Assembly (NCBI RefSeq): GCF_021491375.1
Contig: NZ_JAKEVY010000001.1
Location: 1,054,001 to 1,118,000 of the forward strand
From: Flavihumibacter fluminis
GTDB taxonomy: Bacteria > Bacteroidota > Bacteroidia > Chitinophagales > Chitinophagaceae
Direction: 5' to 3'
DNA length: 64,000 bases
Positions 7,530 through 62,692 of this stretch are shown piece after piece. The number at the start of each line of letters is the position of its first letter. The stretch's first letter is position 1. A program made the translations under genes and the position numbers. The notes beneath the pieces are model-generated. The model worked only from the letters and a program-made list of their open reading frames with translations, had not been told where the DNA came from and did not search any database.

Positions 7530-7566
7530 GCATGGAGACAGGAGACAGAGGAGAAGGGAGACGGGA
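7530..7566 (+). repeat. GA-rich stop-adjacent repeat after fabH
   Basis: A purine-only style tract (GAGCATGGAGACAGGAGAC and on, to GGGAGACGGG) begins at the base after the fabH TGA and ends just before the terminator hairpin. It belongs to the GGAGAC family seen at 8.1, 12.1, 15.0 and 33.1 kb. Confidence 0.75.
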
Positions 7567-7570
7567 AATT

Positions 7571-7608
7571 AAAAAAGGTGAAAGAGGTACGCCCCTTTCA
7601 CCTTTTTT
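7571..7608. terminator. intrinsic terminator between fabH and the converging unit
   Basis: AAAAAAGGTGAAAG (7571-7584) pairs perfectly with CTTTCACCTTTTTT (7595-7608) around a 10-nt loop. A-tract and T-tract flank the stem on both strands, so it can stop transcription from either direction. Confidence 0.85.
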
Positions 7609-7623
7609 AATTTCACTAATTTT

Positions 7624-7654
7624 CACATCTCACGTCTCACATCTCACGTCTCAC
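7624..7654 (-). repeat. 7-bp CTCACRT tandem repeat
   Basis: CTCACGT and CTCACAT heptamers alternate about four times. It is the GTGAGAC module read on the minus strand, the same type as at 13.7, 32.5 and 62.7 kb. Here it lies just past the fabH terminator, in the gap shared with the minus-strand unit ending at 8162. Confidence 0.7.
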
Positions 7655-7734
7655 CTTTCCTTTCCTTTCGGGTAATTTTCTCCGTCCATTCGGCCTCTTT
7701 TCTCTAACCAGTCAGTCAATCTCAACCGCTCCCG

Positions 7735-7800
7735 CACTATTGTTTCACTATTATTGAACCACCAGTGAAGCACCAGTGAACCATTCTGCAACCACGCCAA
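7735..7800. repeat. 11-bp phased imperfect repeat
   Basis: Six consecutive 11-bp units can be laid out: CACTATTGTTT, CACTATTATTG, AACCACCAGTG, AAGCACCAGTG, AACCATTCTGC, AACCACGCCAA. Adjacent units resemble each other, with no indels between them. The rest of the 7655-8042 gap is AT-rich and shows no gene that I can support. Confidence 0.5.
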
Positions 7801-8042
7801 TATACTCCACAGGCACAATGAACAGTTCCAGGTTAGTTTAAGCTATACTTAAAGTAATTTATAGCATCTCTATAAAATCAGGTGGTCAGACTCCCTGGTA
7901 TGGTTTCATCAGCATTTTAAATGTCGCATATAGCCATCATTAACCCTATGTAATGTCACCTATAGGTAACCATAAAATTCATCAGAAAACAGTTCCCATA
8001 TTTCTTCCATGCCTCCTTCCCACCAACTTCCTATGCCAATAT

Positions 8043-8161
8043 TCCATGCCTCCCTTGTCTCCCGTCTCCTCTGTCTCCTTTGTCTCCTTTGTCTCCTTTG
8101 TTTCCTCTTCCATTCCTCCATCTTCCATTCCTCCATCTTCCATTCCTCCATCTTCCCTGCT
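8043..8161 (-). repeat. GA-rich stop-adjacent repeat after the nucleoid protein gene
   Basis: Read on the plus strand this is pyrimidine-rich: TTTGTCTCC-type 9-mers (about 8056-8105), then three exact 15-bp copies of CATTCCTCCATCTTC at 8111-8155. It ends at the stop codon of the minus-strand gene at 8162, so the purine strand is the coding strand. Open frames across it are artefacts of the repeat. Confidence 0.8.
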
Positions 8162-9208
8162 TCATGCCTCCTCATCAAAATACAACTTGTAATACTTCTT
8201 GCCTACCGTTTCATCATAACCGCGTTCCAGGAGGTCGCGGCGACCATGGATGTACACATGGAAGTTCTTGTCGAGTTTGAGCACTGATTTGAATACTTTC
8301 TGCTGTTTCTTTACAGCGGCCAGGTGGATATCAAATTCTTCATCAATCACATAGTTGCGATTGGCTTCAAAATGTCGTTTATAATCCATGAAACTGTCCA
8401 CCACATCGGGGTGATGAATCACTTCATCCGCAAATTCCTGGAGATTGAACTGTTCCTTCGACTTGAAATAATCCATCGACTTATTCAGCAAATCAATCTG
8501 ATCGGATTTGCTTACTTCAAATTTCTCTGCATATTCTTTTTCAATAAAGAGTTTGCAAAGTCCCAATGCCTGGTTGGTATGGTGGTAGCTATCCGTATAA
8601 GGCTGTACCTGCAGAAACTCACTGATCCAGTATTGGGTATCGTTCTGTTTATTGGTAGTATCCACCACCAGCACTTTATACCCTTCCGCTTCATTTTCCC
8701 GGATAATCAGACAACCTTTATCCAGCTTATTGATATTGATACCGTCCTCTGCCGCCAACTCCCAGCCACCCGCATGCGAAAACACTTTCAGGAAGGTTTC
8801 CTTGGTTTCAGATTTGAATAAGCCCAATGCTTTCTTTTCTTCCCCCTCCACTAACAACTTATCAAATAACACCACATACAATTCCCCTTCCTTTACTCTA
8901 GCATGCGTGGATTTCTGATAGAGCAACTGCGCCAGGAACGCAGCCACTTTCTGAAAACTGCCGGGATCATCAAAGATCTTTTTGGCATATTGGTATACAT
9001 CATTCAGCTCCAGATCGCTGATATGTGTAAAATGATATACATCGTGTTCATTGAAAGGTGCCAGGAAATAGCGGGTTAATAATCCACGTACAATTTCATC
9101 ATTAAGCGTAAGCGTGTTGGGCGAAAGTTGCAATGCTTCCCCGCGGGTCGGATTTCCTACTTTATGAACGATGGCTTTTTCCAGCGTAACTGCATCAATT
9201 CCTGTCAT
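8162..9208 (-). CDS. nucleoid-associated protein, NdpA/YejK family
   Basis: The 348-residue product has the length and segments of the 37-kDa nucleoid-associated (NdpA) family: an N-terminal region with LTLNDEIVRGLLTRYF, a central FDKLLVEGEEKKALGLFKSETKETFLKV block, and a lysine-rich C-terminal part with HVYIHGRRDLLERGYDE. Relatives bind DNA with the nucleoid; the exact role is not well known. The ATG overlaps the stop of the upstream gene by 4 bp, so translation is probably coupled. Its stop codon abuts a long GA-rich repeat. Confidence 0.8.
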   Translation of the reverse strand: MTGIDAVTLEKAIVHKVGNPTRGEALQLSPNTLTLNDEIVRGLLTRYFLAPFNEHDVYHFTHISDLELNDVYQYAKKIFDDPGSFQKVAAFLAQLLYQKSTHARVKEGELYVVLFDKLLVEGEEKKALGLFKSETKETFLKVFSHAGGWELAAEDGININKLDKGCLIIRENEAEGYKVLVVDTTNKQNDTQYWISEFLQVQPYTDSYHHTNQALGLCKLFIEKEYAEKFEVSKSDQIDLLNKSMDYFKSKEQFNLQEFADEVIHHPDVVDSFMDYKRHFEANRNYVIDEEFDIHLAAVKKQQKVFKSVLKLDKNFHVYIHGRRDLLERGYDETVGKKYYKLYFDEEA

Positions 9209-9756: not shown

Positions 9757-9796
9757 AACACTCAATTTGCTTTCCGTAAGTTACGAAAATACGGCA

Positions 9797-10294: not shown

Positions 10295-10336
10295 GGTTTT
10301 CAGTTAATTTTACTAAAATTAAAGCCTGATTCACAT

Positions 10337-11563: not shown

Positions 11564-11580
11564 TCAATTAAACTATAACG

Positions 11581-12027: not shown

Positions 12028-12035
12028 AAAGAAAA

Positions 12036-12082
12036 TCCGCCATAGTGAACAGCACCGAACCGGTGGCATTCACTATGGCGGA
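12036..12082. terminator. bidirectional terminator between GNAT and fabD
   Basis: A 14-bp perfect stem, TCCGCCATAGTGAA (12036-12049) with TTCACTATGGCGGA (12069-12082), has a 19-nt loop and A-rich/T-rich flanks (AAAA before, ATTATTTT after). It separates two converging transcripts. Confidence 0.85.
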
Positions 12083-12090
12083 ATTATTTT

Positions 12091-12123
12091 GTCTCCAGTC
12101 TCCTCTGTCTCCTCTTCCATGCC
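12091..12123 (-). repeat. GA-rich stop-adjacent repeat after fabD
   Basis: GTCTCCAGTCTCCTCTGTCTCC followed by TCTTCCATGCC runs up to the fabD stop codon. On the fabD strand it is GA-rich and lies between the stop and the terminator, as it does after fabH. Confidence 0.7.
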
Positions 12124-13014
12124 TCAGCTTATTCCATCCACCGCAACCGTCTTATCAATCTTGCCAATCAATCCCTGCAACACTTTACCCGGACCCACTT
12201 CCGTAAACCTGGAAGAGCCATCCTGGATCATCGCCTGCACACTTTGTGTCCAGCGAACAGCTCCTGTCAATTGCTGAATGAGGTTGTGTTTGATTTCATC
12301 TTTATCAATAACGGCTCTTGCAACCACATTCTGGTAAACGGGACAAACAGGCGTTTGAAATTTCATCGCTTCGATCGCATCTTTCAATTCCTGCCGTGCG
12401 GGCTCCATCAAAGGAGAATGGAAAGCACCACCAACAGGCAACACCAGTGCGCGTTTGGCTCCTGCTGCTTTCATTGATTCGCAGGCCAGTTCGATTCCTT
12501 TTACAGAACCGCTGATCACTAACTGACCAGGACAATTATAATTGGCAGGCACTACAATTTCACCGGACTCCTCCTGCACGCGGGCGCAGACTTCTTCAAC
12601 TTTTGCATCATCCAATCCGAGTACGGCAGCCATAGTGGAAGGTTGCAACTCACAGGCTTTTTGCATAGCGAGGGCGCGAATCGAAACAAGTTGAAGACCA
12701 TCTTCAAAATTCAATACGCCATTCGCCACCAATGCGGAAAACTCACCCAGTGAATGTCCGGCAACCATATCCGGCCTGTTCTGTTCAATACCTTTATAGG
12801 CAATTACTGAATGCAGGAATACAGCAGGCTGAGTAACCTTGGTTTGTCTGAGGTCTTCATCAGTACCAGTAAAAAGAATGTCGGAGATACGAAAGCCAAG
12901 AATTTCATTGGCTTGTTCAAATAACTTCTTAGCAAAGGCACTGTTTTCATAATGCTCTTTACCCATTCCCGGAAACTGAGATCCCTGTCCGGGAAAAACA
13001 TAAGCATGCTTCAT
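12124..13014 (-). CDS. fabD: malonyl-CoA:ACP transacylase (FabD)
   Basis: The 296-residue product carries the oxyanion-loop motif VFPGQGSQFPGMG at the N-terminus, the nucleophile Ser in AGHSLGEFSALVA near residue 84, and the catalytic His in GGAFHSPLM. FabD loads malonyl groups onto ACP for fatty acid elongation. folE lies upstream on the same strand, 36 bp away, and may be cotranscribed. The stop codon abuts a GA-rich repeat. Confidence 0.95.
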   Translation of the reverse strand: MKHAYVFPGQGSQFPGMGKEHYENSAFAKKLFEQANEILGFRISDILFTGTDEDLRQTKVTQPAVFLHSVIAYKGIEQNRPDMVAGHSLGEFSALVANGVLNFEDGLQLVSIRALAMQKACELQPSTMAAVLGLDDAKVEEVCARVQEESGEIVVPANYNCPGQLVISGSVKGIELACESMKAAGAKRALVLPVGGAFHSPLMEPARQELKDAIEAMKFQTPVCPVYQNVVARAVIDKDEIKHNLIQQLTGAVRWTQSVQAMIQDGSSRFTEVGPGKVLQGLIGKIDKTVAVDGIS

Positions 13015-13050
13015 ATAGGCGGTTCTAGTTATACCGCAAAAATAATCAGA

Positions 13051-13647: not shown

Positions 13648-13682
13648 TTTTTAGTGTTTTTGAATTTAATTTGAATGCCCCC

Positions 13683-13713
13683 TTCTCACATCTCACGTTT
13701 GACGTCTCACATC
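13683..13713 (-). repeat. GTGAGAC-type stop-adjacent repeat after queD
   Basis: CTCACAT, CTCACGT, TTGACGT and CTCACAT heptamers on the plus strand end at the queD stop codon (TTA at 13714-13716). The module fills most of the gap to folE. Confidence 0.75.
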
Positions 13714-14130
13714 TTACTTCCCCGGGTAGTCCACAAAATTCCTTGCCGTCTCATACAACCGGATACCCAGTTCATGTTTCGGATCTATATGTGGTCGCAA
13801 CAATTCGTAGATCACGATCGCTATGTTTTCAGCGGTTGGGTTTCTCTCTTTGAAATAAGGTGTGTCGAGGTTCAGGTTGCGATGATCAAACACCTGAAGG
13901 ACTTCGCGATTAATGATATCCGACAACTGCTTCATGTCAATTACGAAACCAGTCACGGGATCAGGCTCACCCAGCACTTTAACCTCTAATTCATAGTTGT
14001 GCCCATGATAATGAGGGTAACTGCATTTGCCAAAAACCGAAAAATTCTGTGCATCATCCCAATCAGCCCGAAACAACCTGTGTGCTGCATTAAAATGTTC
14101 CTTCCTGTAAACGGCCACTTTGTTTGACAT
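13714..14130 (-). CDS. queD: 6-carboxy-5,6,7,8-tetrahydropterin synthase / PTPS family (QueD)
   Basis: The 138-residue product has the three zinc His of the family: HFNAAHRL near residue 15 and the HYHGHNYELEV pair near 41-43. The catalytic region VIDMKQLSDIINREVLQVFDHRNLN and the Glu in NPTAENIAI are also present. It turns dihydroneopterin triphosphate, the FolE product, into the queuosine precursor CPH4, or acts as a pyruvoyl-tetrahydropterin synthase. ATG 14130 follows GGTTGGAG; an in-frame ATG at 14136 would add two residues. folE lies downstream on the same strand. Confidence 0.9.
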   Translation of the reverse strand: MSNKVAVYRKEHFNAAHRLFRADWDDAQNFSVFGKCSYPHYHGHNYELEVKVLGEPDPVTGFVIDMKQLSDIINREVLQVFDHRNLNLDTPYFKERNPTAENIAIVIYELLRPHIDPKHELGIRLYETARNFVDYPGK

Positions 14131-14284: not shown

Positions 14285-14941
14285 ATGCATTGTTTACTGG
14301 TCGCGGCCACTGCCGCCGAAATCACTCCTTTTACAGAACACCTGGCTGAGACAGACAAACTGATTCATATAGATTTTGATGTGGATATCCTGATAACCGG
14401 GGTAGGCTCCGTTGCCACCACCTATGCCCTGACGCGTTACCTCCAGCATAAACGTCCCGAGTTGATCATACAGGCTGGGGTAGCTGGCAGTTTTGACCCA
14501 ACAGTACCAGCCGGGACTGTTTACGCGGTTCAGAAAGAAATCATTGCAGACATGGGAGCTGTTGAAAAACAGGGATTTGCGAACTTATTTGAGCTGGGAC
14601 TGGCCAATCCGAATGAAGCACCTTATAAGAGATCCTGGCTGACCAACCCGAATACCACCCTGCTGAAAAGAAGCCGGCTTAAAAAGGTGAATGCCATCAC
14701 GGTGAATGAAATCTCCACTTCAAAAAAAAGGATCCAGTCCTACCAGGATGCCTACCAGCCCGCGCTTGAATCCATGGAAGGGGCTGCCTTTCATTATGTA
14801 TGCCTGCAGGAGAATATTCCTTTCATGCAATTGAGAAGCATCTCCAATACGGTTGGAGTGCGCAACAAAAAACAGTGGGATCTTCCTCTGGCCATTGAGA
14901 ATTTGAACAAGGTGTTGGTGAGGTTGTTGGAAGCGCTGTAG
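14285..14941 (+). CDS. mqnB: futalosine hydrolase (MqnB)
   Basis: The 218-residue product belongs to the nucleoside phosphorylase/hydrolase superfamily: MHCLLVAATAAEITPF at the start, ITGVGSVATTYALTRYL, IQAGVAGSFDP, and the ribose/catalytic region LESMEGAAFHYVC followed by LRSISNTVG. MqnB removes adenine from futalosine (or aminofutalosine) in the alternative menaquinone pathway. Its assignment is supported by mqnD 199 bp downstream. The ATG at 14285 gives the family start; the upstream frame extension lacks similarity. A long GA-rich repeat starts at the base after its TAG. Confidence 0.9.
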   Translation: MHCLLVAATAAEITPFTEHLAETDKLIHIDFDVDILITGVGSVATTYALTRYLQHKRPELIIQAGVAGSFDPTVPAGTVYAVQKEIIADMGAVEKQGFANLFELGLANPNEAPYKRSWLTNPNTTLLKRSRLKKVNAITVNEISTSKKRIQSYQDAYQPALESMEGAAFHYVCLQENIPFMQLRSISNTVGVRNKKQWDLPLAIENLNKVLVRLLEAL

Positions 14942-15117
14942 ATGTGAGACGTGAGAATGGAAGATGGAGAAAAGGAAGAAAGGAGGAATGGAACAGGAGG
15001 CAAAGGAGAATGGAAGAGGAAACAAAGGAAACGGGAGGCAAGGAAGAGGAGACAAAGGAGACGGGAGACAAAGGAGACGGGAGACAAAGGAGACGGGAGA
15101 CAAAAGAGACGAAACCT
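14942..15117 (+). repeat. long GA-rich repeat between mqnB and mqnD
   Basis: The tract opens with GATGTGAGACGTGAG directly after the mqnB stop, passes through GGAAGATGGAG-type units, and ends in 16-bp GGAGACAAAGGAGACG units repeated three times (about 15049-15110). All three repeat types of this window occur in one run. It has no stable hairpin and separates two genes that belong to one pathway. An open frame through it is an artefact. Confidence 0.85.
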
Positions 15118-18420: not shown

Positions 18421-20685
18421 TTATTTGAATTTCTTCTTCAATTCATTCAGTTTCGCCTGGAAATCATTCACCGGCTCCGGCCCCTTCTTCCTTTCCTCCG
18501 TCTTCCTTTCTCCCCCTCTCCTTTCCTCCATCTTCCTTTCCCCCATCTTCCGTTCTCCCGTCTTCATCGACAAACCAATTCGTTTCCTGGCAAGATCAAC
18601 TTCTGTCACTGTTACCTTCACTTTCTGCTGCAATTTCACCACTTCTGCAGGATCACTCACATAGGTATCACTGAGTTGGGAAATATGAATCAATCCATCC
18701 TGTTTTACACCAATATCCACAAACACACCAAACTTGGTAATATTGGTTACGATGCCCGGCACTACCATGCCCACTTTTACATCTTCCATTGTTTTGATAC
18801 TGTCATCAAAACGAAACTCTTCAATTGGTGCACGTGGATCACGTCCCGGTTTTTCCAATTCCTTCAGAATATCTTCAATCGTGAATTCACCAATGGTTTC
18901 TGAAATGTATTTTTTCCGGTTGATCTGCCGGCGCAATTCAGCTTTTTCAATCAGGTCTTTCACTTTGCAATTCAGGTCCTTTGCCATGGATTCCACCACT
19001 GGATAAGTTTCCGGGTGCACGGCACTGTTATCAAGTGGATTAACGGCCTCGCGTATACGCAAAAAACCGGCGCATTGCTCAAAGGTTTTGGGGCCCATCA
19101 GGCTCACCTTTTTCAATTCTTCCCTTGATTTAAACGGACCATTTTTCTGGCGATACTCCACAATGTTTTTAGCAAGTGTGGCACTTAGTCCGGATACATA
19201 CATCAGCAAATGTTTGCTGGCTGTATTCAAATCCACACCCACATGGTTCACGCAGCTTTCTACTACACGATCCAGGCTCTCTTTCAAACGCGACTGGTTT
19301 ACATCGTGCTGGTATTGTCCTACACCAATTGATTTGGCATCAATCTTTACCAATTCACTTAACGGATCCAGTAAACGTCTTCCTATACTTACTGCACCCC
19401 GAACAGTAACATCGTAATCAGGAAATTCTTCGCGGGCCACTTCTGATGCAGAATAAATGGAGGCACCACTTTCATTCACCTGGAATACACTTACAGGTTT
19501 TCCAAAATCAATAGATCTTGCCAATGTTTCAGTTTCTCTTCCGGCAGTTCCATTCCCTATACCTATTGCTTCAATTCCAAACTGCTTCACCAATTGTTTG
19601 ATAGTGTCTACACTTTTCTGCCATTCATTCTGTGGCGGATGCGGGTAAATGGTGCTGGAATGAATCAGATTGCCCTGTTCATCCAGGCATACCAGTTTAC
19701 AACCGGTACGATATCCAGGATCAAGTGCCAGTACTCTTTTGGAACCCAGCGGAGAGGCCAGCAAAAGCTGTCGCAGGTTTTCTGCAAATACCTGGATGGC
19801 TTCTTCATCAGCCGCATTTTTGGTTGTTAACCGGAATTCATTTTCAATGGATGGCTTTAGCAAACGATCAAAACTATCTGCAATCGCCAGCCTGATTTCT
19901 TCGGCAGCTTCACTGTTGTTTTTTACAAATAATCTTTCCAGTTCAGGTACCGCTATGGCTTTTTCAATATTGATATCCATTAGCAGATAACCTTCCTTTT
20001 CACCTCTGCGAATCGCAAGGATCCGGTGGGAAGGGCATTTGGAAAGTGGCTCAGAGAACTCAAAATAATCCCGGTATTTCTGTGCATCTGCTTCTTCTTT
20101 TTTAGAACTCAGCACGCGTGAAACCAGGATGGCAGAAGTTTCAAACAAAGACCGGATGGCAGTCCTTGCCTGCTGGTCTTCAGCCACGCGTTCTGCAATG
20201 ATATCTCTTGCACCCTGTAAAGCATCTTTGGCTGATTTCACTTCCTCTTTTACATAAGCCTGTGCAGCAGCTTCCGGACTGCCGGACTGCTGTTCCCAAA
20301 TCCAGTCGGCCAAAGGTCCCAGTCCTTTTTCAATGGCCTGGCTGGCTCTTGTTTTTCGCTTGGGTTTATACGGCAGGTAAATATCTTCCAGTTCCGTAGC
20401 ATTGATACAGGCTACAATTTTTGCAGATAATTCCGGTGTCAGTTTCCCCTGTGAGTCGATTGTTTTCAGTACGGTTTCCTTTCTTTTCTCCAGGTCTTTG
20501 AAATAGGCGATTTCTTCTACAATAGAAGTAATAACTACTTCATCGAGGTTACCGGTTGCTTCTTTCCGGTACCTTGCCATAAAAGGAACAGTAGCCCCTT
20601 CCTCCTGCAGTTCATATACATTCACTACCTGCTTTATGGAAAGGGATAATTTCTGCGCGATTACACTAACATATTTTGGATCCAT
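18421..20685 (-). CDS. tex: Tex family RNA-binding transcription accessory protein, with a repeat insertion
   Basis: The 754-residue product has the Tex order: N-terminal helical domain, YqgF/RuvX-like domain (RVLALDPGYRTGCKLVCLDEQG near 320), helix-hairpin-helix segments (DLNTASKHLLMYVSGLSATLAKNIVEYR), and an S1 RNA-binding domain (VGMVVPGIVTNITKFGVFVDIGVKQDGLIHIS). Tex affects transcription and RNA handling. ATG 20685 is preferred because an exact -7 box lies 19 bp upstream (20705-20712); a longer frame starts at 20730. Between the S1 domain and the conserved end FQAKLNELKKKF the protein carries about 27 residues of ERKMG/ERKMEE repeats encoded by the GA-rich repeat family. Confidence 0.93.
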   Translation of the reverse strand: MDPKYVSVIAQKLSLSIKQVVNVYELQEEGATVPFMARYRKEATGNLDEVVITSIVEEIAYFKDLEKRKETVLKTIDSQGKLTPELSAKIVACINATELEDIYLPYKPKRKTRASQAIEKGLGPLADWIWEQQSGSPEAAAQAYVKEEVKSAKDALQGARDIIAERVAEDQQARTAIRSLFETSAILVSRVLSSKKEEADAQKYRDYFEFSEPLSKCPSHRILAIRRGEKEGYLLMDINIEKAIAVPELERLFVKNNSEAAEEIRLAIADSFDRLLKPSIENEFRLTTKNAADEEAIQVFAENLRQLLLASPLGSKRVLALDPGYRTGCKLVCLDEQGNLIHSSTIYPHPPQNEWQKSVDTIKQLVKQFGIEAIGIGNGTAGRETETLARSIDFGKPVSVFQVNESGASIYSASEVAREEFPDYDVTVRGAVSIGRRLLDPLSELVKIDAKSIGVGQYQHDVNQSRLKESLDRVVESCVNHVGVDLNTASKHLLMYVSGLSATLAKNIVEYRQKNGPFKSREELKKVSLMGPKTFEQCAGFLRIREAVNPLDNSAVHPETYPVVESMAKDLNCKVKDLIEKAELRRQINRKKYISETIGEFTIEDILKELEKPGRDPRAPIEEFRFDDSIKTMEDVKVGMVVPGIVTNITKFGVFVDIGVKQDGLIHISQLSDTYVSDPAEVVKLQQKVKVTVTEVDLARKRIGLSMKTGERKMGERKMEERRGGERKTEERKKGPEPVNDFQAKLNELKKKFK
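18481..18566 (-). repeat. GA-rich repeat inserted in frame in tex
   Basis: On the tex strand the DNA reads GGAAGATGGGGGAAAGG, GGAAGATGGAGGAAAGG and related units, matching the ATGGAAGATGGAGGA module found after stop codons elsewhere. The 15-bp unit keeps the frame and yields charged ERKxEE residues in a linker. Confidence 0.8.
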
Positions 20686-31234: not shown

Positions 31235-32491
31235 ATGGCAGATATCTTCGAGAAGCTGGTGAAAGATGGCGGACCGATAGGTCAGCACATGAAACGTGCG
31301 CATGGTTATTTCGCATTTCCGAAACTGGAAGGGGAACTGGGTAGCAGGATGTTTTTCAGGGGCAAGGAGCGAATTGTATGGAGCCTGAATAACTACCTGG
31401 GGCTTGCCAATCACCCTGAAACACGCAAGGCTGATACCCTGGCGGCGGAAAAATGGGGAATGGGATACCCTATGGGCGCGCGTATGATGAGTGGAAACAG
31501 CGTTTATCACGAAGAACTGGAAAAAGTATTGAGTGGATTTGTACAGAGAGAAGATGCCATGTTGCTGAATTTCGGCTACCAGGGCATTATGAGTTGTATT
31601 GATGCACTGGTAAATCGTCGCGATATCATTGTATACGATGCAGAATGTCATGCCTGTATCGTGGATGGTATCCGGATGCACCTGGGTTATAGCTATACCT
31701 TTAAGCATAACGATATCGAAGATTGTGAAAAGCAATTACAGCGCGCTGTGAAGATGGCGGAGAAAACAGGTGGTGGTATTCTCCTGATCACGGAAGGTGT
31801 ATATGGAATGAGTGGTGACCAGGGTAAGCTGAAAGAGATTGTTGCCTTAAAAGAAAAATACGAATTCCGTATCCTGATTGATGATGCGCATGGCTTTGGA
31901 GCAATGGGACCAACTGGTGCCGGAACTGATGAAGAACAAGGCTGCCAGGCTGGAATCGACCTGTATTTTTCAACCTTTGTAAAATCAATGGGAAGCATCG
32001 GGGCATTTATAGCCGGACCAAAAGATGTGCTATCCTACCTGCGGTACAATACACGTTCCCAGATCTTTGCGAAGAGCCTGCCCATGATCATCGTGGAAGG
32101 TATGCTGAAGCGTATGGAGATGTTAAAGACCATGCCGGAGCTGCGCGAAAAACTCTGGAAGGTGACCAATGCGCTGCAATCTGGTCTGAGAGAACGCGGA
32201 TTTGACCTGGGCAAAACCAACACCATGGTAACCCCGGTTTACATGAAAGGAGACGTGCCGGAAGCAACTGCCATGGTACTGGACCTGCGTGAAAATTATA
32301 ATATCTTCTGTTCTATAGTAGTGTATCCGGTAATCCCGAAGGGGCAGATTATTTACCGCCTGATTCCTACTGCAGCGCATACAGAGGAAGATATCAACCT
32401 CACGCTGAAAGCGTTCACCGAAACCAAAGCCAAGCTGGATGCCGGAGCTTATAAAGTGGCGGAGATTCCGGATATGGCGGAGGCGATGTAA
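31235..32491 (+). CDS. spt: alpha-oxoamine synthase, probable serine palmitoyltransferase
   Basis: The 418-residue product belongs to the PLP alpha-oxoamine synthase family (SPT, KBL, BioF). The PLP lysine is Lys250 in STFVKSMGSIGAF, the cofactor Asp/His are in ILIDDAHGFGAMG, and SGNSVYHEELE and ECHACIVDGIRM are conserved. The TFVKSMGS lysine context and 418-residue length resemble Bacteroidetes serine palmitoyltransferases, which join serine and acyl-CoA in the first step of sphingolipid synthesis. BioF or KBL remain possible. A GA-rich repeat starts right after its TAA, then a strong terminator. Confidence 0.8.
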   Translation: MADIFEKLVKDGGPIGQHMKRAHGYFAFPKLEGELGSRMFFRGKERIVWSLNNYLGLANHPETRKADTLAAEKWGMGYPMGARMMSGNSVYHEELEKVLSGFVQREDAMLLNFGYQGIMSCIDALVNRRDIIVYDAECHACIVDGIRMHLGYSYTFKHNDIEDCEKQLQRAVKMAEKTGGGILLITEGVYGMSGDQGKLKEIVALKEKYEFRILIDDAHGFGAMGPTGAGTDEEQGCQAGIDLYFSTFVKSMGSIGAFIAGPKDVLSYLRYNTRSQIFAKSLPMIIVEGMLKRMEMLKTMPELREKLWKVTNALQSGLRERGFDLGKTNTMVTPVYMKGDVPEATAMVLDLRENYNIFCSIVVYPVIPKGQIIYRLIPTAAHTEEDINLTLKAFTETKAKLDAGAYKVAEIPDMAEAM

Positions 32492-32580
32492 GGAACGTGA
32501 GACGTCAGACGTCAGATGTGAGATGTGAGAAGGGTATGGAAGATGGGGAAAGGAGAAAAGGAGGAAGGGAAGACGTGATC
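32492..32580 (+). repeat. GA-rich stop-adjacent repeat after spt
   Basis: GGAACGTGAGACGTCAGACG starts at the base after the spt stop and runs into TATGGAAGATGGGGAAAGGAG-like units, ending just before the terminator. It combines the GTGAGAC and ATGGAAGATGG modules. Confidence 0.8.
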
Positions 32581-32639: not shown

Positions 32640-32786
32640 TGAGTCAATTGCGGTGATCTATGAGCCAAATATGGGTAATTGTGAGCCAATTAAGGGTCGC
32701 CGTGAGCCAATTAGGGTGATTTTTGGGCCAATTTTATAGTAGTATGAGCCAATTAGTAGTTTTCATGAGCCATTTATACCTGGCTT
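32640..32786 (+). repeat. 21-bp phased array, seven TGAGCCAATT units
   Basis: Units start at 32640, 32661, 32682, 32703, 32724, 32745 and 32766, exactly 21 bp apart. Each begins with TGAGCCAATT or a 1-2 base variant (TGAGTCAATT, TGAGCCAAAT, TGGGCCAATT, TGAGCCATTT) followed by about 11 variable bases, often containing GGGT. Both strands have stops in all frames that I checked, so it is not coding. A second array of the same design lies at 62387. The rest of 32787-32887 shows no gene. Confidence 0.85.
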
Positions 32787-32927: not shown

Positions 32928-32980
32928 TTTCATTTGACCCACTTACAGCCCAACACCATCCCAGGACCGCTAATCACATA

Positions 32981-33225
32981 CCCTTCTCCTTTTCTCCATC
33001 TTCCATACCCGTTTCCTTTGTCTCCTCTTCCATGCCTCCCGTCTCCTCTGTTTCCTTTCTACCTTGTCTCCTCTTCCATTCCTCCTTTCTTCCTTTTTTC
33101 CATTCTCCATGCTTCCATTCTCCTATGTCTCCGGTTTCCTTTGTTTCCTGTCTCCCTTCTCTCCATTCTTCCTTTCTTCCTTTCCTCCATCTTCCATTCT
33201 TCCTTGTCTCCCCTTCCATACACCC
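32981..33225 (-). repeat. long pyrimidine-rich (GA-rich on minus strand) repeat
   Basis: TTTCTCCATCTTCCAT, TTTGTCTCC, CTTCCATGCCTCC, TTCCATTCTCC and similar units fill 245 bp. It abuts the minus-strand hairpin terminator at 33229-33256, so the purine strand again lies downstream of a minus-strand transcript. Several long frames cross it on both strands and are artefacts. Confidence 0.8.
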
Positions 33226-33228
33226 CCC

Positions 33229-33256
33229 AAAAAAAATCCCGCCGAGAAACGGCGGG
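33229..33256 (-). terminator. intrinsic terminator on the minus strand
   Basis: CCCGCCG (33238-33244) pairs with CGGCGGG (33250-33256) around AGAAA; read on the minus strand eight T residues follow. It is 300 bp from the nearest minus-strand gene stop (33564), and only about 50 bp from a minus-strand promoter box at 33306-33313. Confidence 0.8.
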
Positions 33257-33300
33257 ATGCACTAATCAAATACCATTAACCATTAAACCTTATCCTATGA
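33229..33300 (-). ncRNA. candidate small RNA of about 70 nt
   Basis: A minus-strand exact -7 box (TATATTTG, 33313-33306) predicts a start near 33299, and a strong intrinsic terminator ends near 33229. Between them there is no reading frame longer than a few codons. The transcript would be an A/U-rich 5' half and a GC-rich terminal hairpin. It could instead be the decayed leader of a lost gene. The neighbouring 33314-33563 stretch is AT-rich and holds no gene that I can support. Confidence 0.4.
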
Positions 33301-33305
33301 AAATT

Positions 33306-33313
33306 CAAATATA
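33306..33313 (-). promoter_or_regulatory. -7 element for the candidate small RNA
   Basis: TATATTTG on the minus strand, exact match; no clear -33 TTG upstream. Confidence 0.4.
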
Positions 33314-33563
33314 AGATGTTAATGAGGAAACATTAGTTGCATCCTGCAATTTTTTTTGGAGTAGCATGAAAGAAGTTGACGAAAATCAATACTTCCTAAG
33401 TGCTTCCTTAAAAGAAAGCTGATTGATCCGTCAATTTTGACCCTGGGAGAGTCAATGAGAAGAAATCCTATGAAAAACCAACTATATAGATAGGAATTTG
33501 ATCAGAAACGTTGCAGGGGTGTTAAAACTATCTTGATTTTTTAATGTGTTTTTAATACTGTAA

Positions 33564-43957: not shown

Positions 43958-45214
43958 TTAGCCGCCCAGCACCTGAGCAAAGCGCCAGATTTCTTCATAT
44001 CGGTTATATAAAGGCACTGGTGCCAGCCTGATTACATCTGGTTCCCGCCAGTCGACAAAAAATCCTTTCCGGGTTAATTCATCGAATAATTCCTTGCCTC
44101 CCTGTTTTACCAACAGCGATACCTGGCAACCCCGCGCTGTGGCAGCTGCAGGTGTCAGTATGTGGAACTTTCCCGGATTTGCTTCACTGATCTGCTCTAA
44201 CAGAAACCGGAGATAAGCAGCCATCTGTTTTGCTTTTTGCAAACAGGAATCAAATCCGGCAGTTTCAAAAATTTCAAGAGAAGCGCGAAGGGATGCATAC
44301 AAAATTGGCGAAGGGGTGCTGAGTTGCCAGCCCTCTGCAGACTCCATGGCCACAAAGCCTTTTTCCATTTTGAAACGCGTATTCTTTTCATAGCCCCACC
44401 ATCCTGCAAAGCGATGCAGGGATTTATCCTGGTGATAACGTTCATGAATAAACGCAGCGCCAATAGCACCCGGACCGCCATTCAGGTATTTGTAATTGCA
44501 CCAACAGGCGAAATCAACGTTCCATACATGAAGATGGAGTTCAATATTACCAGCTGCATGTGCCAGATCGAATCCCACTTTTGCTCCCACTGCATGGCCT
44601 GCGCGGGTGATGGCTTCCATGTCAAAAAGTTGACCGGTATAATAGTTCACACCGCCCCAGAGAACGAGGGCCAACTCCTCTCCTGTCTGCTGAATGGCAG
44701 CCAGTATATCTTCCTGATGAATGGTAACTTCTCCAGCACGCGGACTCACTTCAATCAACACATCTTCAGGATCATAGCCCAATGCTTTGATATGTGTTTC
44801 AAACATGTACTGATCACTTGGAAAAGCTTTGGCTTCACAAATAATCTTTACGCGTTTGTCTGCAGGCCGGTAAAAACTAACCATCAGGAGGTGCAGGTTT
44901 ACAGTAAGCTGGTTCATCACCACCACTTCAGCAGAATGCGCACCCACGATCTTTGCAAGAGGGCCCACCAGGTGATCGTGGTAATTCAGCCAGGGATCCT
45001 CCCCCATGAAAAAACTCTCCACACCATATTTTGCCCATTGGTCGAGCACTTTCTGTATATATGGTCCGGTATTCTTTGGTTGCAGTCCCAAAGAGTTGCC
45101 AAGAAAATAAACCTGTTGCTGTCCGTGTTCTTCCGGAATGATAAACTGCTCGCGAAAACCCGCCAGTGAATCAGCAGCATCAAGGGATTGGGCATATGAT
45201 AATTCCAAGTTCAT
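43958..45214 (-). CDS. kynU: kynureninase
   Basis: The 418-residue product is a fold-type I PLP enzyme with kynureninase hallmarks: VYFLGNSLGLQPK, GEDPWLNYHDHLVGPLAKIVGA, VVVMNQLTVNLHLLM, the cofactor Asp in GFDLAHAAGNIELHLH, and the PLP lysine in CNYKYLNGGPG. It cleaves kynurenine or 3-hydroxykynurenine to (hydroxy)anthranilate and alanine, for tryptophan breakdown or NAD synthesis. No other kynurenine gene is adjacent. pyrF lies 20 bp downstream and an atypical SDR gene upstream. Confidence 0.94.
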   Translation of the reverse strand: MNLELSYAQSLDAADSLAGFREQFIIPEEHGQQQVYFLGNSLGLQPKNTGPYIQKVLDQWAKYGVESFFMGEDPWLNYHDHLVGPLAKIVGAHSAEVVVMNQLTVNLHLLMVSFYRPADKRVKIICEAKAFPSDQYMFETHIKALGYDPEDVLIEVSPRAGEVTIHQEDILAAIQQTGEELALVLWGGVNYYTGQLFDMEAITRAGHAVGAKVGFDLAHAAGNIELHLHVWNVDFACWCNYKYLNGGPGAIGAAFIHERYHQDKSLHRFAGWWGYEKNTRFKMEKGFVAMESAEGWQLSTPSPILYASLRASLEIFETAGFDSCLQKAKQMAAYLRFLLEQISEANPGKFHILTPAAATARGCQVSLLVKQGGKELFDELTRKGFFVDWREPDVIRLAPVPLYNRYEEIWRFAQVLGG

Positions 45215-45239
45215 AATTCATAATTCATACTTCTCACTT
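45215..45239 (-). repeat. short stop-adjacent repeat between the SDR gene and kynU
   Basis: The 25-bp gap is CATAATT heptamers (about 3) plus CTTCTCACTTC. On the gene strand AAGTGAGAAGT follows the SDR stop codon, the start of a GTGAGAC-like module, and runs into ATGAATT units. Confidence 0.55.
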
Positions 45240-46025
45240 CTAAAGGCTTCCCGTTCGGCCACCATCCACCGGAATGCTTGTACCAGTTATATAGGCTGCT
45301 GCAGGACTAGCCAAAAACGCCACCAACGCAGCAGTTTCCTCTGCTTTTCCAAAACGCTTGAGCGGAACCTCTGCTGCCATGGAACGTTCCTGTTCTTCAA
45401 CAGTTATGCCTTTGTCAGCAGCCAGGCTTTGGGCCAAACTTTTCAATCTTGCGGTGGAAGTAAATCCTGGCAATACATTGTTCACCGTAATTCCAAATGG
45501 TCCCAGTTCATTCGCCATGGTCTTTGACCAGGAAGCAACCGCACCCCGAATCGTATTGGAAACTCCCAGGTTATTCAGGGGAATCTTAACAGAGGTGGAC
45601 ACGATATTGATGATTCTGCCATAGCCCAGTCTTTTCATTCTAGGTACAACTGCCTGGGTTAACAACTGGTTGACGATTACATGTTGCTGAAAAGCATTCA
45701 GAAACTGGTCGGTATCCGCATCGATTATTGGTCCGGGTTTTGGCCCGCCGGTGTTATTTACCAGGATGCTGATGGTGTGCTTCAACAGAATTTCTTCAAT
45801 CGATTTCTTAACTGCATCCGGACTGGAAAAATCAGCCACAGCAAAACTGTGCTGTTGCCCTTTGGATGTATCGAGTGAATTGACGGCAGTCTGCAAAGAG
45901 CCTTCATTGCGTGCCAGTAAAATACAATTAGCACCCAACAGGGCGAGTTCCCTGGCTGCAGCCAAACCAATGCCCTGGGTGCTTCCGCAAACCAGGGCAG
46001 TTTTATTTTCAAGAGATAATTGCAT
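45240..46025 (-). CDS. SDR-family protein lacking the usual Tyr and Lys
   Basis: The 261-residue product has the Rossmann start ALVCGSTQGIGLAAA, the NNTGG segment at 90-94, the Ser region NIVSTS (143/145) and the C-terminal PVDGGRTGSL of FabG-like SDRs. Where the YxxxK catalytic pair should be, the sequence reads SNTIR (156-160), so Tyr is Ser and Lys is Arg. The nucleotide motif is CGSTQGIG rather than TGxxxGIG. A subgroup of FabG-like SDRs with such changes is known; the activity is unclear. It lies in the kynU/mrp region and may be cotranscribed with kynU. Confidence 0.85.
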   Translation of the reverse strand: MQLSLENKTALVCGSTQGIGLAAARELALLGANCILLARNEGSLQTAVNSLDTSKGQQHSFAVADFSSPDAVKKSIEEILLKHTISILVNNTGGPKPGPIIDADTDQFLNAFQQHVIVNQLLTQAVVPRMKRLGYGRIINIVSTSVKIPLNNLGVSNTIRGAVASWSKTMANELGPFGITVNNVLPGFTSTARLKSLAQSLAADKGITVEEQERSMAAEVPLKRFGKAEETAALVAFLASPAAAYITGTSIPVDGGRTGSL

Positions 46026-57616: not shown

Positions 57617-57618
57617 AC

Positions 57619-58116: not shown

Positions 58117-58222
58117 AACATGCAGATTCGTTGATCAATTGGTAGAACTGGAAGTTATGTTATTTTAAATCCACCTTGTAGAATTGTCAAATTTTTGATA
58201 CCTTCTGTTAAAATCATATTGA

Positions 58223-59326: not shown

Positions 59327-59343
59327 TACTGGTCGCTATGCGG

Positions 59344-59351
59344 TAAATTTG
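59344..59351 (+). promoter_or_regulatory. -7 element for the radical SAM gene
   Basis: TAAATTTG, exact match, 18 bp before TTG 59370. Confidence 0.5.
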
Positions 59352-59369
59352 CCCGCTAAACTGGAATCT

Positions 59370-61565
59370 TTGAGCACACCGGTATTTCTTGTTACGCCTC
59401 CCTTTACACAGTTGAACACGCCTTACCCGGCCACTGCTTACCTGAAAGGATTCCTGAACACTAAAGAGATTGCATCAGAGCAGGCGGACCTGGGTATTGA
59501 TCTTACACTGGCCTTGTTCAGCAGACAGGGATTGGAAGAAGTTTTCAGTACAGTGGAGCCTGCCTCCATTGAAAGTCCCAACTCCAAAAGGATTTACCGG
59601 CTTCGCAACCAGTACATGGAAACCATTGATGAAGTCATCCGCTTTTTACAGGGAAATGAACCTACCCTGGCGCATCGCATTGCCGGAAGAAATTTTCTTC
59701 CCGAGGCAGGCAGGTTCGCCCAATTGGATGACCTGGTCTGGGCTTTCGGTAAAATGGGCACACAGGACAAGGCCAAACACCTGGCCACCCTATACCTGGA
59801 AGATTTATCCGATTTCATTAAGGAAAACCTGGATGAACATTTTGGTTTTAGTCGGTATGCAGAAAAGCTGGCGCGTTCCGCCAATCGGTTTGATGAACTG
59901 TATGCCGCATTACAAAATGCACCGGGTTTTATTGATCAGAAAATGACGGCCTTACTGGAAGACTACATTCAGCGTTATCAACCTTTACTGATTGCCTTTT
60001 CTGTTCCTTTCCCAGGCAACCTCTTTGCGGCCCTGCGTTGTGGTCAATATATAAAACAGCAGCATCCTGCCATCAAGATTGCGATGGGTGGAGGCTTTGC
60101 CAATACCGAATTGCGCTCCTTAAAAGATGCCCGCATCTTTGAGTTTTTTGATTTCATCACACTGGATGATGGAGAAGCCCCCATCGAACAACTGCTCGCT
60201 TATGTGAGAAAGCAGATTGATGCGGCTGAATTGAAACGAACCTTTCTGCTTGCCGAAGGCGCGCTGACCTATATTGAAAACAAAGCCTGCCGCGATTATA
60301 AACAGGCAGAGCTGGGCACCCCCGATTACAGCGGCCTGCGACTATATGAATACATTCAGGCCATTGAGATCATCAACCCGATGCATTCCTTGTGGAGTGA
60401 CGGGCGTTGGAACAAACTAACGATGGCGCATGGTTGCTATTGGGGCAAATGCACGTTCTGTGATATCAGCCTGGATTATATTCGGTTATACGAGCCTGTT
60501 GCAGCTTCTCTGATCGTTGACAGGATGGAAACCATCATTCAGCAAACCGGCAACAATGGATTTCATTTTGTGGATGAAGCAGCGCCGCCTGCCCTGATGC
60601 GCGCGGTTGCATTGGAGATCATCAGGCGTAAACTAATAGTGAGCTGGTGGACCAATATCCGTTTTGAGAAAAGCTTTACAAGGGATCTCTGTTTGTTGTT
60701 GAAAGCATCTGGTTGTATAGGCGTATCAGGTGGATTGGAAGTTGCATCGGACCGTCTGCTGGCATTGATTGATAAAGGAATCACTGTTGCACAGGTAGCG
60801 CGGGTGAACAAACATTTCACGGAAGCGGGTATCATGGTACATGCGTACCTCATGTATGGCTTTCCAACTCAAACGGATCAGGAGACTATTGATTCGCTGG
60901 AGATGGTGCGACAATTATTTGCTGCCGGGGTATTGCAGAGTGCTTTCTGGCATCAGTTTACGATGACGGCTCATAGTCCGGTTGGACTGGAACCTGAAAA
61001 ATTCAAGGTAAAAGCGCTTCGTCCGGCTGAAATTTTATTTGCCGATAATGATGTGGAACACGAAGATCCAACCGGTGCAGATCATGCTGCGTATGGATAT
61101 GGGTTGAAAAAATCCCTACTGAATTTTATGCATGGAGCCTGCCTGGATTTCCCCCTCCATAAATGGTTTGATTTTAAAGTGCCGAAAACAAGTATTGCAC
61201 CGGATTATATAGAACGAATTTTGAAGGAAGAAGATTTTTCAGCGACCAAGCCAACTACTAAAGTTGTTTTCATTGGCAATCTGCCATCATCTGAAATAGT
61301 TGTGAAGTCAAAAAAAGGGCAGCAATGGGAATCCATGGAGTTATCATTTGAAACCCTGCAATCTGACCTAACCATTCGCCTATCAAAAGAAGAGGGAGCA
61401 TGGTTGGTAGCCATACTCCCTCAACTGCAATTAGATAATCCCAAAACGATGACCCGGCAGGAATTGAAAACTTCGTATGAAGCAGCCGGACTACCGGATT
61501 TCGAGCTCTTCTGGGATAATAAGCCAATCAGCAACCTGTATAAAGCAGGCCTGCTGCAGCTGTAA
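59370..61565 (+). CDS. B12-binding-domain-type radical SAM protein of unknown substrate
   Basis: From TTG 59370 the product is 731 residues. The N-terminal 330 residues contain a Rossmann-like B12-type domain (LLIAFSVPFPGNLFAALRCG, IKIAMGGGFANTEL) without an obvious DxHxxG motif. The radical SAM core has its cysteines at 356, 361 and 364 (HGCYWGKCTFCD), that is CX4CX2C where CX3CX2C is usual, then HFVDEAAPP and GVSGGLEVASDRLL. The function is unknown. The -7 box at 59344 supports a start at TTG 59370; the frame is open to 59310, inside the previous gene. Confidence 0.82.
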   Translation: MSTPVFLVTPPFTQLNTPYPATAYLKGFLNTKEIASEQADLGIDLTLALFSRQGLEEVFSTVEPASIESPNSKRIYRLRNQYMETIDEVIRFLQGNEPTLAHRIAGRNFLPEAGRFAQLDDLVWAFGKMGTQDKAKHLATLYLEDLSDFIKENLDEHFGFSRYAEKLARSANRFDELYAALQNAPGFIDQKMTALLEDYIQRYQPLLIAFSVPFPGNLFAALRCGQYIKQQHPAIKIAMGGGFANTELRSLKDARIFEFFDFITLDDGEAPIEQLLAYVRKQIDAAELKRTFLLAEGALTYIENKACRDYKQAELGTPDYSGLRLYEYIQAIEIINPMHSLWSDGRWNKLTMAHGCYWGKCTFCDISLDYIRLYEPVAASLIVDRMETIIQQTGNNGFHFVDEAAPPALMRAVALEIIRRKLIVSWWTNIRFEKSFTRDLCLLLKASGCIGVSGGLEVASDRLLALIDKGITVAQVARVNKHFTEAGIMVHAYLMYGFPTQTDQETIDSLEMVRQLFAAGVLQSAFWHQFTMTAHSPVGLEPEKFKVKALRPAEILFADNDVEHEDPTGADHAAYGYGLKKSLLNFMHGACLDFPLHKWFDFKVPKTSIAPDYIERILKEEDFSATKPTTKVVFIGNLPSSEIVVKSKKGQQWESMELSFETLQSDLTIRLSKEEGAWLVAILPQLQLDNPKTMTRQELKTSYEAAGLPDFELFWDNKPISNLYKAGLLQL

Positions 61566-61569
61566 AATA

Positions 61570-62325
61570 TTAATCGCGACTGCTAAGCTTACTCAGCAAC
61601 CGGAGGATTTCAATATAGAGCCAGATGATGGTCACCATCAATCCGAAGGCGCCAAACCACTCCATGTATTTTGGAGCACCCATCTTTACTCCGTTTTCAA
61701 TCATATCAAAATCGAGGATGAGGTTAAGTGCTGCGATGGCAACCACAAAAAGTGAGAAGCCAATGCCCAGCAAACTGCCTTCGTGCAGGAAAGCCAGTTC
61801 AACGCCAAATAATCTCAGTACCAGTGCGATGAGGTAAAAAACCGCAATACCTGCTGTAGCGGTGAATACGATAGATTTAAAACGCTGGGTGGCTTTAATA
61901 ACACCGGTGCGATATAAAACATACATGGCGATAACAGTTCCGAAAGTGAGTGCCACTGCCTGCATCACCAGCCCGGGAGCCACTTCTGAGAATGCATCCG
62001 CGTATATGGCAGAGATACCTCCCACAAAAACACCTTCTACCAAACCATAGGCAGGTACAGTGTATTGTCCGTATTGAGGACGAAAACTGGTAACCAGAAC
62101 CAGGATCAAGCCAACAATTGCGGATCCGATTACCCAGGGCATTACATTAACCCCTTCGAAATGGGCTTTCCAGGTAAGTAAAGCAGAAGCCATCAACAGG
62201 AAGAAGAGGAAGATAAATTTGTTCATCGTGCCTCTTTCGGTCATGGTTTCGGTACCAGCACCGGTAAGAGAAGCTTCAAAACGTTTTTCAGAAAGTGCCG
62301 GGTTTCCGGACTTAAAAATTGCCAT
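61570..62325 (-). CDS. Bax inhibitor-1/YccA family membrane protein
   Basis: The 251-residue product has about seven membrane helices after a soluble N-terminus (MAIFKSGNPALSEKRFEASLTGAGTETMT is typical of the Bacteroidetes/YccA-like branch) and ends with an Asp-containing helix (LILDFDMIENGVKMGAPKYMEWFGAFGLMVTIIWLYIEILRLL). Family members are linked to ion leak or stress tolerance. It ends 4 bp from the radical SAM stop. Its upstream region contains the second 21-bp array (62387-62491), 62 bp before the ATG. Confidence 0.9.
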   Translation of the reverse strand: MAIFKSGNPALSEKRFEASLTGAGTETMTERGTMNKFIFLFFLLMASALLTWKAHFEGVNVMPWVIGSAIVGLILVLVTSFRPQYGQYTVPAYGLVEGVFVGGISAIYADAFSEVAPGLVMQAVALTFGTVIAMYVLYRTGVIKATQRFKSIVFTATAGIAVFYLIALVLRLFGVELAFLHEGSLLGIGFSLFVVAIAALNLILDFDMIENGVKMGAPKYMEWFGAFGLMVTIIWLYIEILRLLSKLSSRD

Positions 62326-62386
62326 AGGTCTGAGTTTAGGGGATCAAAGTAGTAAATACTGGTTGAAAATCAAAACATTCGAGGCA

Positions 62387-62491
62387 TGAGCCAATTATAG
62401 GGTTTTATGAGCCAATTATTGGCAAAAATGAGTCTTTTAGGGGATAAAATGAGCCAATTATCAAAAAGCATGACCCCATTAAAAAAACACA
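62387..62491 (+). repeat. 21-bp phased array, five TGAGCCAATT units
   Basis: Units start at 62387, 62408, 62429, 62450 and 62471, exactly 21 bp apart. Cores are TGAGCCAATT (three), TGAGTCTTTT and TGACCCCATT. The design equals the array at 32640. It lies between the starts/ends of two minus-strand genes. The spacer 62492-62543 is AT-rich and empty. Confidence 0.85.
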
Positions 62492-62543
62492 ATTCATTGA
62501 TTTTCATTTAAATATCTGAAATTTTCAAAAATCAAAACCCGTA

Positions 62544-62583
62544 ATCCTCCGCAATCCTTCGCCATCCTCCGTCTTCCTAGGAT
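62544..62583 (+). repeat. 10-bp phased repeat, ATCCTNCGNN units
   Basis: ATCCTCCGCA, ATCCTTCGCC, ATCCTCCGTC and a weaker TTCCTAGGAT follow without gaps. Same unit and order as at 32888. Confidence 0.75.
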
Positions 62584-62647
62584 ATTGAACCAGCCCAGCT
62601 TCGACCCACCACCACCCATGGTCCGATAAAGAACACCCACACGGCCC

Positions 62648-62692
62648 CTCTCACGTCTCACGTCTCACATCTGACGTCTCACTTCTTCCATA
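62648..62692 (-). repeat. GTGAGAC repeat overlapping the end of the VOC gene
   Basis: CTCACGT and CTCACAT-type heptamers on the plus strand. The VOC stop codon (62651-62653) lies inside the repeat, and the last dozen codons are made of it. Confidence 0.8.

Follow-up and report, generated by a model that had tools for sequence, protein, structure and literature searches.

Seven-base repeat arrays at gene borders of Flavihumibacter fluminis: G-rich strand outward, sites kept among near species while the repeat sequence changes

Introduction

Why should short GA-rich repeats follow one stop codon after another, each time with the purine strand as the coding strand? The question is raised by a stretch of 64,000 nucleotides of the Flavihumibacter fluminis genome (here called the window), where a first-pass annotation described such repeats at the ends of eight genes and proposed, among other causes, a mobile or slippage-prone sequence with a preference for gene ends. 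We followed the repeats through a larger sample of the genome (4.71 Mb in 41 contigs, of which the window is a part) and through related genomes. They are mostly arrays of a seven-base unit that lie at gene borders, nearly always with the G-rich strand running outward from the gene they touch, and among near species they keep their sites while their content turns over. To the reading that they form a class of gene-end heptamer arrays, slippage-driven and site-stable, kept by selection at gene borders, we give an even chance.

Results

We searched 864 kb of the genome, made up of the window and forty spaced 20-kb stretches (800 kb), with a Markov model for which the window tracts served as training set, later extended by the model's own matches, and obtained 73 tracts, 10 of which come from the window, where the tracts were first noticed. 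The same sequence read backward gave 14, and the ten backward matches listed resemble reversed tracts. The sampled stretches were drawn from five contigs only (C11, C21, C32, C36 and C37), about 5 kb was masked, and one stretch (L042) did not follow the 100-kb spacing but was placed where pattern matches were already known. Genes were taken from a home-made hexamer caller, which missed some of them. Here an arm is one array, and its outward strand is the G-rich, C-poor (purine) strand.

The placement of the tracts is far from random. Sense arms start at a stop codon in 38 of the 73 cases; 2000 runs with tracts put at random in non-coding DNA averaged 7.1 such cases and never exceeded 18. In 37 of these 38 arms the start falls at positions -4 to +5 nt relative to the stop. 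Arms of the opposite polarity were found at only 2 stops (random, 7.0). At start codons, 14 arms point outward and 5 inward (random, 8.7 for each). The stop codon is itself the TGA of a heptamer in 13 of the 38 sense arms, and TGA stops are enriched there (20/38, vs 206/749 for all genes, p 0.001). Gene orientation matters as well: among gaps of at least 50 bp, with the 12 tracts that have no gap assignment set aside, an arm is present in 10/31 convergent, 27/216 co-directional and 3/123 divergent gaps (convergent vs divergent, p = 5e-6). The corresponding figures are 6/20, 8/74 and 0/37 in relative G231, and 3/7, 6/59 and 0/19 in relative G008. At a stricter threshold, 26 of 27 arrays are intergenic.

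The polarity extends beyond the stop codon. The gene nearer to an arm lies on its purine-5' side in 56/61 cases in F. fluminis, 15/18 in G231 and 35/39 in G021, a member of another Chitinophagaceae genus (G231, G008 and two further relatives, G179 and G108, belong to the genus of the window). Neighbouring arms on opposite strands converge in 36 of 36 pairs (18 in F. fluminis, 2 in G231, 2 in G008 and 14 in G021), and two further neighbour pairs are on the same strand. Because the tract model derives from the window and from its own matches, we added a sequence-agnostic test for period-7 arrays, which gave 46 converging and 3 diverging pairs, from data that overlap with the 36 pairs above. The rule therefore holds more widely than had been proposed: the G-rich strand runs outward from the touched gene. 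"Stop-codon-anchored" is too narrow a term, because arms also occur at start codons, past the terminator of a probable small RNA (sRNA) and in a protein linker (that of Tex). Likewise, the coding strand is the purine strand at all eight window sites, yet in co-directional gaps 25 of the 38 tracts are sense and 13 antisense. The first-pass annotation had named as evidence against itself a lack of excess at stops, a lack of strand bias, or equal numbers in 5' gaps; we observed none of these in the sample.

Period 7 alone stands out in the agnostic test, with 52 arrays in the F. fluminis sample against at most 8 for each of the periods 5, 6 and 8-11. The dominant heptamers are TGAGACG in F. fluminis, TGAAAGG/TGAAAAG in G231 and G008, and TAAGAGG in G179, while G021 uses TGAGACG, TGACGGA, ATGTTGG and TGACAGA. 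One period-7 array was found in 140 kb of the genome G225 (a stretch placed over known matches, L187, being excluded) and none in 79 kb of G108, where the spt site carries a looser TAAGGTY array as judged by eye. In mixed arms, the heptamers are proximal to the gene and the GGA-type units distal (11/11). The GGA-type blocks hold the heptamer GGGAGAC (ACGGGAG), one base away from GTGAGAC, and from their sequence these units may be derived from the GTGAGAC heptamer. No GGG occurs in GTGAGAC, GTGAAAG, ATGAATT or GTAAGAG; GGGAGAC, found in 3 of the 52 F. fluminis arrays, has one. On the outward strand G exceeds C in 106 of 106 arms, as scored with an arm model trained on such arms. Of 159 arrays (F. 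fluminis, G231, G008, G179 and G021; the units are related, not independent), 140 have a stop codon in the unit when the purine strand is read and 27 when the opposite strand is read. As a unit length of 7 is not divisible by 3, stops in all frames are supplied by three units.

The other-genus genome G021 is richer in period-7 arrays (45 in 240 kb; L169, L175, L177, L178 and L179), counting one stretch, L179, that was placed over known matches and retained. Its arms use different heptamers and match one another over up to about 100 nt (L178).

To compare species, we examined 96 orthologous gaps in the window and in three stretches picked because they are rich in arms (L060, L066 and L067), scanning the relatives at a laxer tract score (22 vs 30). 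An arm is present at 13/13 of the F. fluminis tract gaps in G231 and at 10/12 in G008, and the two G008 gaps without a model arm carry another heptamer, as judged by eye. The model trained on F. fluminis scored 0/10 tract gaps in G179 and 0/10 in G108, whose own heptamers it misses. Gaps that are tract-free in F. fluminis carry an arm in 1/75 cases in G231, 0/59 in G008, 1/53 in G179 and 0/40 in G108; the single G231 extra is the VOC site, where the F. fluminis arm overlaps the gene. Against G231, no clear gain or loss of a site was seen in the 88 compared gaps. The content of the gaps behaves differently: tract-free gaps are within 3 bp of the F. fluminis length in 68/75 cases in G231 and 53/59 in G008, and tract gaps in only 1/13 and 2/12, respectively (p 3e-9 and 9e-7). 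Because occupancy is common and gap lengths differ, the three near species combine stable sites with rapid turnover of content.

At some sites both arms have been replaced together. Both arms at L060:14352 consist of GTGAGAC in F. fluminis and G231, ATGAATT in G008 and GTAAGAG in G179; both arms at L066:2279 consist of GTGAGAC in F. fluminis, GTGAAAG in G231 and G008, and GTAAGAG in G179. Of the proposal of a mobile or slippage-prone sequence that prefers gene ends, slippage and preference fit the data, in that length changes fall mostly at tract gaps and both the stop excess and the strand bias survive random placement. Mobility finds no support among near relatives, given the 88 gaps without clear gain or loss.

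The tracts are numerous. The 63 found in the 800 kb outside the window suggest, by extrapolation, about 370 per genome, and the window, with 10 in 64 kb, is denser than the remainder of the sample. With at most one mismatch, ATGGAAGATGGAGGA occurs 70 times genome-wide and the reversed pattern 0 times; GTGAGACGT was seen 74 times in the sample, compared with 0.7 expected. Exact GTSAGAYGTSAGAYGTSAGA is present in 14 of 244 genomes of the family and 10 of 101 genera (reversed control, one match), with 321 copies in F. fluminis, 164 in G231, 83 in G021, 42 in G008 and 27 in G225, and none in G108 and G179, both of the same genus. One GGA-type pattern also occurs in Flavihumibacter cheonanensis WS16 and in a metagenome genome labelled Flavipsychrobacter. 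The heptamer pattern was found in 42 viral-contig stretches, 9 of the 14 listed being near-copies of one locus, and the GGA pattern had no match in viral contigs. Two near-identical arm pairs in L042 (11119-11355 and 18384-18632) are separated by 7.3 kb and seem to stem from a local duplication in which the arrays were copied as well.

Within the window, all eight claimed sites are present, the coding strand is the purine strand at each, and the gene names match Pfam. A GGAGACA-type arm (7534-7565, + strand) begins a few bases past the fabH stop (7527-7529) and is followed by a terminator-like hairpin with A and T runs (7566-7615; GGTGAAAG...CTTTCACC), itself made of the GTGAAAG unit. A heptamer arm of GTGAGAC/GTGAGAT (7592-7669, - strand; array core 7623-7654) converges on the fabH arm, and the next stop on its own strand is 492 bp off. 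An arm of ATGGAAGATGGAGGA and GGAGACAAA (8003-8161, -) lies past the stop of the NdpA-like (NA37) gene at 8162(-), and an GGAGACAGA arm (12091-12123, -) past the fabD stop at 12124(-) and ahead of a hairpin. Past the queD stop at 13714(-) stands a GTGAGAC heptamer arm (13678-13713, -); the G008 orthologue has GGAGACGGG-type units at the same position. Heptamers and then GGA-type units follow the mqnB-like stop at 14941(+) (14942-15104, +) and the stop of the spt-like aminotransferase at 32491(+) (32492-32578, +). GTGAGAA/TATGAAT-type heptamers (45199-45239, -) lie past the TAG stop of the SDR gene at 45240(-), and GTGAGAC/GTCAGAT-type heptamers (62649-62686, -) overlap the end of the glyoxalase/VOC frame, whose stop is at 62651(-).

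Three window tracts have no preceding stop codon: the heptamer arm at 7592-7669(-) and two of GGA type. One of the latter consists of 15-bp units in frame within the C-terminal linker of Tex (18481-18565, -), a non-coding GA-rich repeat type being tolerated here as coding sequence; in G179 the Tex linker is Ala/Pro-rich at this position. The other is a long arm (32959-33222, -) directly past the terminator of a probable sRNA, where there is no stop codon. This probable sRNA with its terminator (33226-33330, -) has 73 alignment columns identical across five species of the group, while the flanking proteins are only 57-92% identical in the distant G179 and G108. It gave a weak sub-threshold match to RF04319, the Bacteroidetes FopS sRNA (27.4 bits, cut-off 56); RNA family models run over the whole window gave no match at the gathering threshold, and 7400-8300 gave 18 sub-threshold matches only, 17 of them miRNA models placed on hairpins and the remaining one CsrC.

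Between a heptamer arm and a GGA-type arm lies a dispersed core repeat of about 130 bp (7678-7815, -), with further copies in F. fluminis, G231 and G008 (L117-L126, L129-L134). Many of the listed copies are flanked by C-rich arms, of heptamers on one side and of GGA type on the opposite side, and those in L118, L123, L126, L131 and L132 stop just short of a TATCTTYGC-like box and an ATG. A second repeat type, with the unit TGAGCCAATTA about every 20 bp, is found at 62386-62461, where G231 has more units, and at about 32655-32770. The spt site of G108 holds an unrelated ~19-bp array of the GCCAATAGGTACGCGC-like kind. As a guess, the second repeat type may have served a lost transposon as binding arrays.

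Discussion

Placement, polarity and period of the tracts, the stability of their sites between near species, the turnover of their content and the joint replacement of both arms at some sites are what we observed. How could such a pattern arise and persist? In the explanation that we propose, the basic unit is seven bases long (GTGAGAC and its relatives, with GGGAGAC/GGAGACAAA and ATGGAAGATGGAGGA units distal), slippage would create and remove units, and copying between sites (concerted evolution) would spread variants. Arrays would survive only where they do little harm, which is mostly past a stop codon, and the TGA or TAA within nearly every heptamer could double as a stop. Transcription would set the polarity, the outgoing RNA being G-rich and the incoming RNA C-rich, and selection would retain the array as a spacer and as half of a hairpin, helping to separate neighbouring transcripts. 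These last two steps are the ones of which we are least sure; we consider it plausible that the arrays serve to keep neighbouring transcripts apart. Weak Shine-Dalgarno use, another cause that had been suggested, is unlikely to be general, because Rehm et al. (2015; PMC4692102) report arrays placed in a similar way in Xanthomonas and Nostoc.

Several results weigh against this explanation. The outward excess at start codons is weak when taken alone, since 85 of the 2000 random runs reach 14; only 8 of 13 G008 arms have the nearer gene on the purine-5' side; and five sense arms sit just ahead of the next start. A -7-like box (TANNTTYG) adjoins only 5 of the 18 F. fluminis 5' arms, and on this ground we rejected the idea that 5' arms are promoter parts. 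In the accessible part of PMC4692102, the quadruplex group of the Xanthomonas genome Xac has transcripts with the C-rich strand in 49.3% and the G-rich strand in 39.7% of cases (control set, 37% vs 50%), and these figures do not favour the transcription step. Predicted intrinsic terminators show no clear enrichment, occurring in 10/36 tract gaps and 36/206 tract-free gaps (convergent and co-directional; one shuffled control gap also scored), so that we rejected a role of the arms as terminator companions; where a tract gap does bear a terminator, the repeat lies between stop and hairpin, as had been claimed, in 8 of 10 cases, the exceptions being L049 and L070. Finally, cognate complementarity of the Markov-defined F. 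fluminis arms is no better than that of non-cognate arms (mean rank 0.56, best in 0/18), and in several pairs the partners are a heptamer arm and a GGA arm, which are unable to pair. When arms were defined without regard to sequence, cognate arms were the better match, at mean ranks (0.5 = chance) of 0.15 +/- 0.03 in G021 (20 pairs), 0.33 +/- 0.09 in F. fluminis (12), 0.38 +/- 0.12 in G231 (6) and 0.30 +/- 0.13 in G008 (6), but 0.50 in G179, with only two pairs. At L060:1964 in G008, the two arms match over 27 bases, variant order included. Hairpin pairing as the sole cause of polarity is thus unsupported with the Markov arms and moderately supported with the agnostic ones; we conclude that it contributes but does not account for everything.

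How do other explanations fare? The arrays could be neutral long simple-sequence repeats that arise by slippage everywhere and are purged from coding DNA and promoters, their polarity being a by-product because sense arms provide stops at 3' ends and false starts are avoided at 5' ends. The period-7 excess, the avoidance of divergent gaps and the heptamers whose TGA serves as the stop all fit, and both an excess of heptanucleotides and polymerase slippage are already known (Mrazek 2007, as reported in the available passages of PMC4679880). We nevertheless regard neutrality as rather unlikely: near species show no clear gain or loss of sites although the content turns over fast, pairs converge 36 to 0, both arms switch family together, and a similar polarity is reported (PMC4692102) for GGGAATC of Xanthomonas, a unit free of stops on both strands. 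A mobile or decayed palindromic element, resembling a miniature inverted-repeat transposable element (MITE) or a repetitive extragenic palindromic (REP) sequence, with outer heptamer arms, inner GGA arms and a central terminator or core, might once have spread between gene ends. Such an origin would suit the extrapolated copy number, the patchy presence in 14 of 244 genomes, the constant order of heptamers outside and GGA units inside, the dispersed core between arms and the long arm matches of G021. It is made improbable by occupancy that is common at the tract gaps of G231 and G008 and nearly absent elsewhere, by the many single arms and by heptamers that differ between species at one site; in the loci viewed by eye, with no systematic scan, no target-site duplication was noticed.

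Two further explanations address the polarity directly. As Rho insulators, the arrays would make RNA that enters a gene C-rich and G-poor, resembling a Rho utilization (rut) site, so that Rho halts antisense and read-through transcription at the border. The composition of the 106 arms agrees with this, with the reservation on training given above, and the observed polarity is the one required at both gene ends. Some C-rich arms, however, lie directly ahead of an ATG between close co-directional genes. Placement is also similar in Nostoc (PMC4692102), and for cyanobacteria an absence of Rho is reported (PMC13289151). We give the proposal a low probability. Alternatively, a telomerase-like reverse transcriptase could add repeats at broken ends, extending the G-rich strand outward before the ends are joined. 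Outward G-rich polarity and partly independent arms would be expected from end-extension, but RVT_1 was detected in 4 of 17 genomes searched and in none of the array-rich genomes G000, G231, G008, G021 and G225. Barring an enzyme outside RVT_1, this largely refutes the proposal, which we consider very improbable, and we rejected a reverse-transcriptase origin on that result. A requirement for Ku end-joining was rejected too, as the array-rich G021 has no Ku.

Among known bacterial repeats, REP sequences and bacterial interspersed mosaic elements (BIME) occur in hundreds of copies, in 3' gaps and as inverted pairs. The present tracts resemble them in all three respects, but their unit is a direct, non-palindromic heptamer repeat and single arms are common. 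Presence or absence of whole copies between near relatives, which would mark a transposon or MITE, was not observed. We found no description of the arrays for Chitinophagaceae or Flavihumibacter in the open-licence PMC literature. A preference for heptamers is shared with the long simple-sequence repeats of Mrazek (2007, via PMC4679880), for which slippage is the proposed source, and with the heptanucleotide repeats of Calothrix mentioned in PMC4692102; the passages available on either do not describe polarity at gene ends. The TAACTGA repeats of Beggiatoaceae, Cyanobacteria and five Bacteroidetes (MacGregor 2015, PMC4679880, available in part) are likewise intergenic 7-nt arrays with a patchy taxonomic distribution and stops in all frames. 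They have another unit and, in the best-studied genome, lie mostly forward just upstream of starts, features that the present tracts lack, and the available passages give no rule of converging pairs.

The closest known kind, judged from the accessible parts of Rehm et al. (2015; PMC4692102), from which all statements on these repeats here are taken, is that of the G-rich heptamers of Xanthomonas (GGGAATC) and Nostoc (GGGGA(C/T)T), for which quadruplexes are discussed and no role is assigned; the present tracts are not of the quadruplex type. In both cases 7-nt tandem units are scattered through intergenic DNA, lie sense near stops and antisense close upstream of open reading frames, and avoid divergent gaps, although the excess of antisense arms before starts is weak here. 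Sense and antisense arms number 25 and 13 in our co-directional gaps, compared with 30% and 35% in the Xanthomonas genome Xcc. Converging plus/minus pairs are also found in Xanthomonas (70 in Xcc and 75 in Xac), whereas Nostoc has few, and sites are mostly common to Xcc and Xac (83%) with variable length. Unlike those repeats, GTGAGAC contains no two G bases side by side, which puts the proposed quadruplex out of its reach; our arrays add GGA-type units, mostly carry stop codons in their heptamers, belong to the phylum Bacteroidota and, at orthologous sites, can differ between species in the heptamer of both arms.

The Xanthomonas/Nostoc architecture built from heptamers that lack G runs removes the quadruplex as a general explanation. 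Quadruplexes are not the common cause because the present heptamers have no G runs, the supply of stops is not because GGGAATC has no stop on either strand, and Rho is not because cyanobacteria are reported without it (PMC13289151, seen in part). With these three excluded, the common cause would be either that arrays are generated in a transcription-coupled way, for example through R-loops formed by G-rich outgoing RNA, or that selection acts on structure and not on sequence. We suggest, tentatively and with somewhat less than even confidence, a sequence-independent rule at gene borders that spans Gammaproteobacteria, Cyanobacteria and Bacteroidota: 7-bp arrays persist mainly with the G-rich strand outward, and the heptamer at inherited sites can be rewritten within a lineage, on the two arms at once, while the sites are kept. 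Rewriting of dispersed arrays at fixed sites is, in our judgement, unusual for bacteria. Near species with different heptamers at the same sites provide a natural experiment on what is kept, and sites that are kept while the repeat sequence changes make a little-studied class of bacterial repeats testable. Together, a rule that crosses phyla and the rewriting of arms at fixed sites make these arrays worth pursuing beside the heptamers of Xanthomonas and Nostoc.

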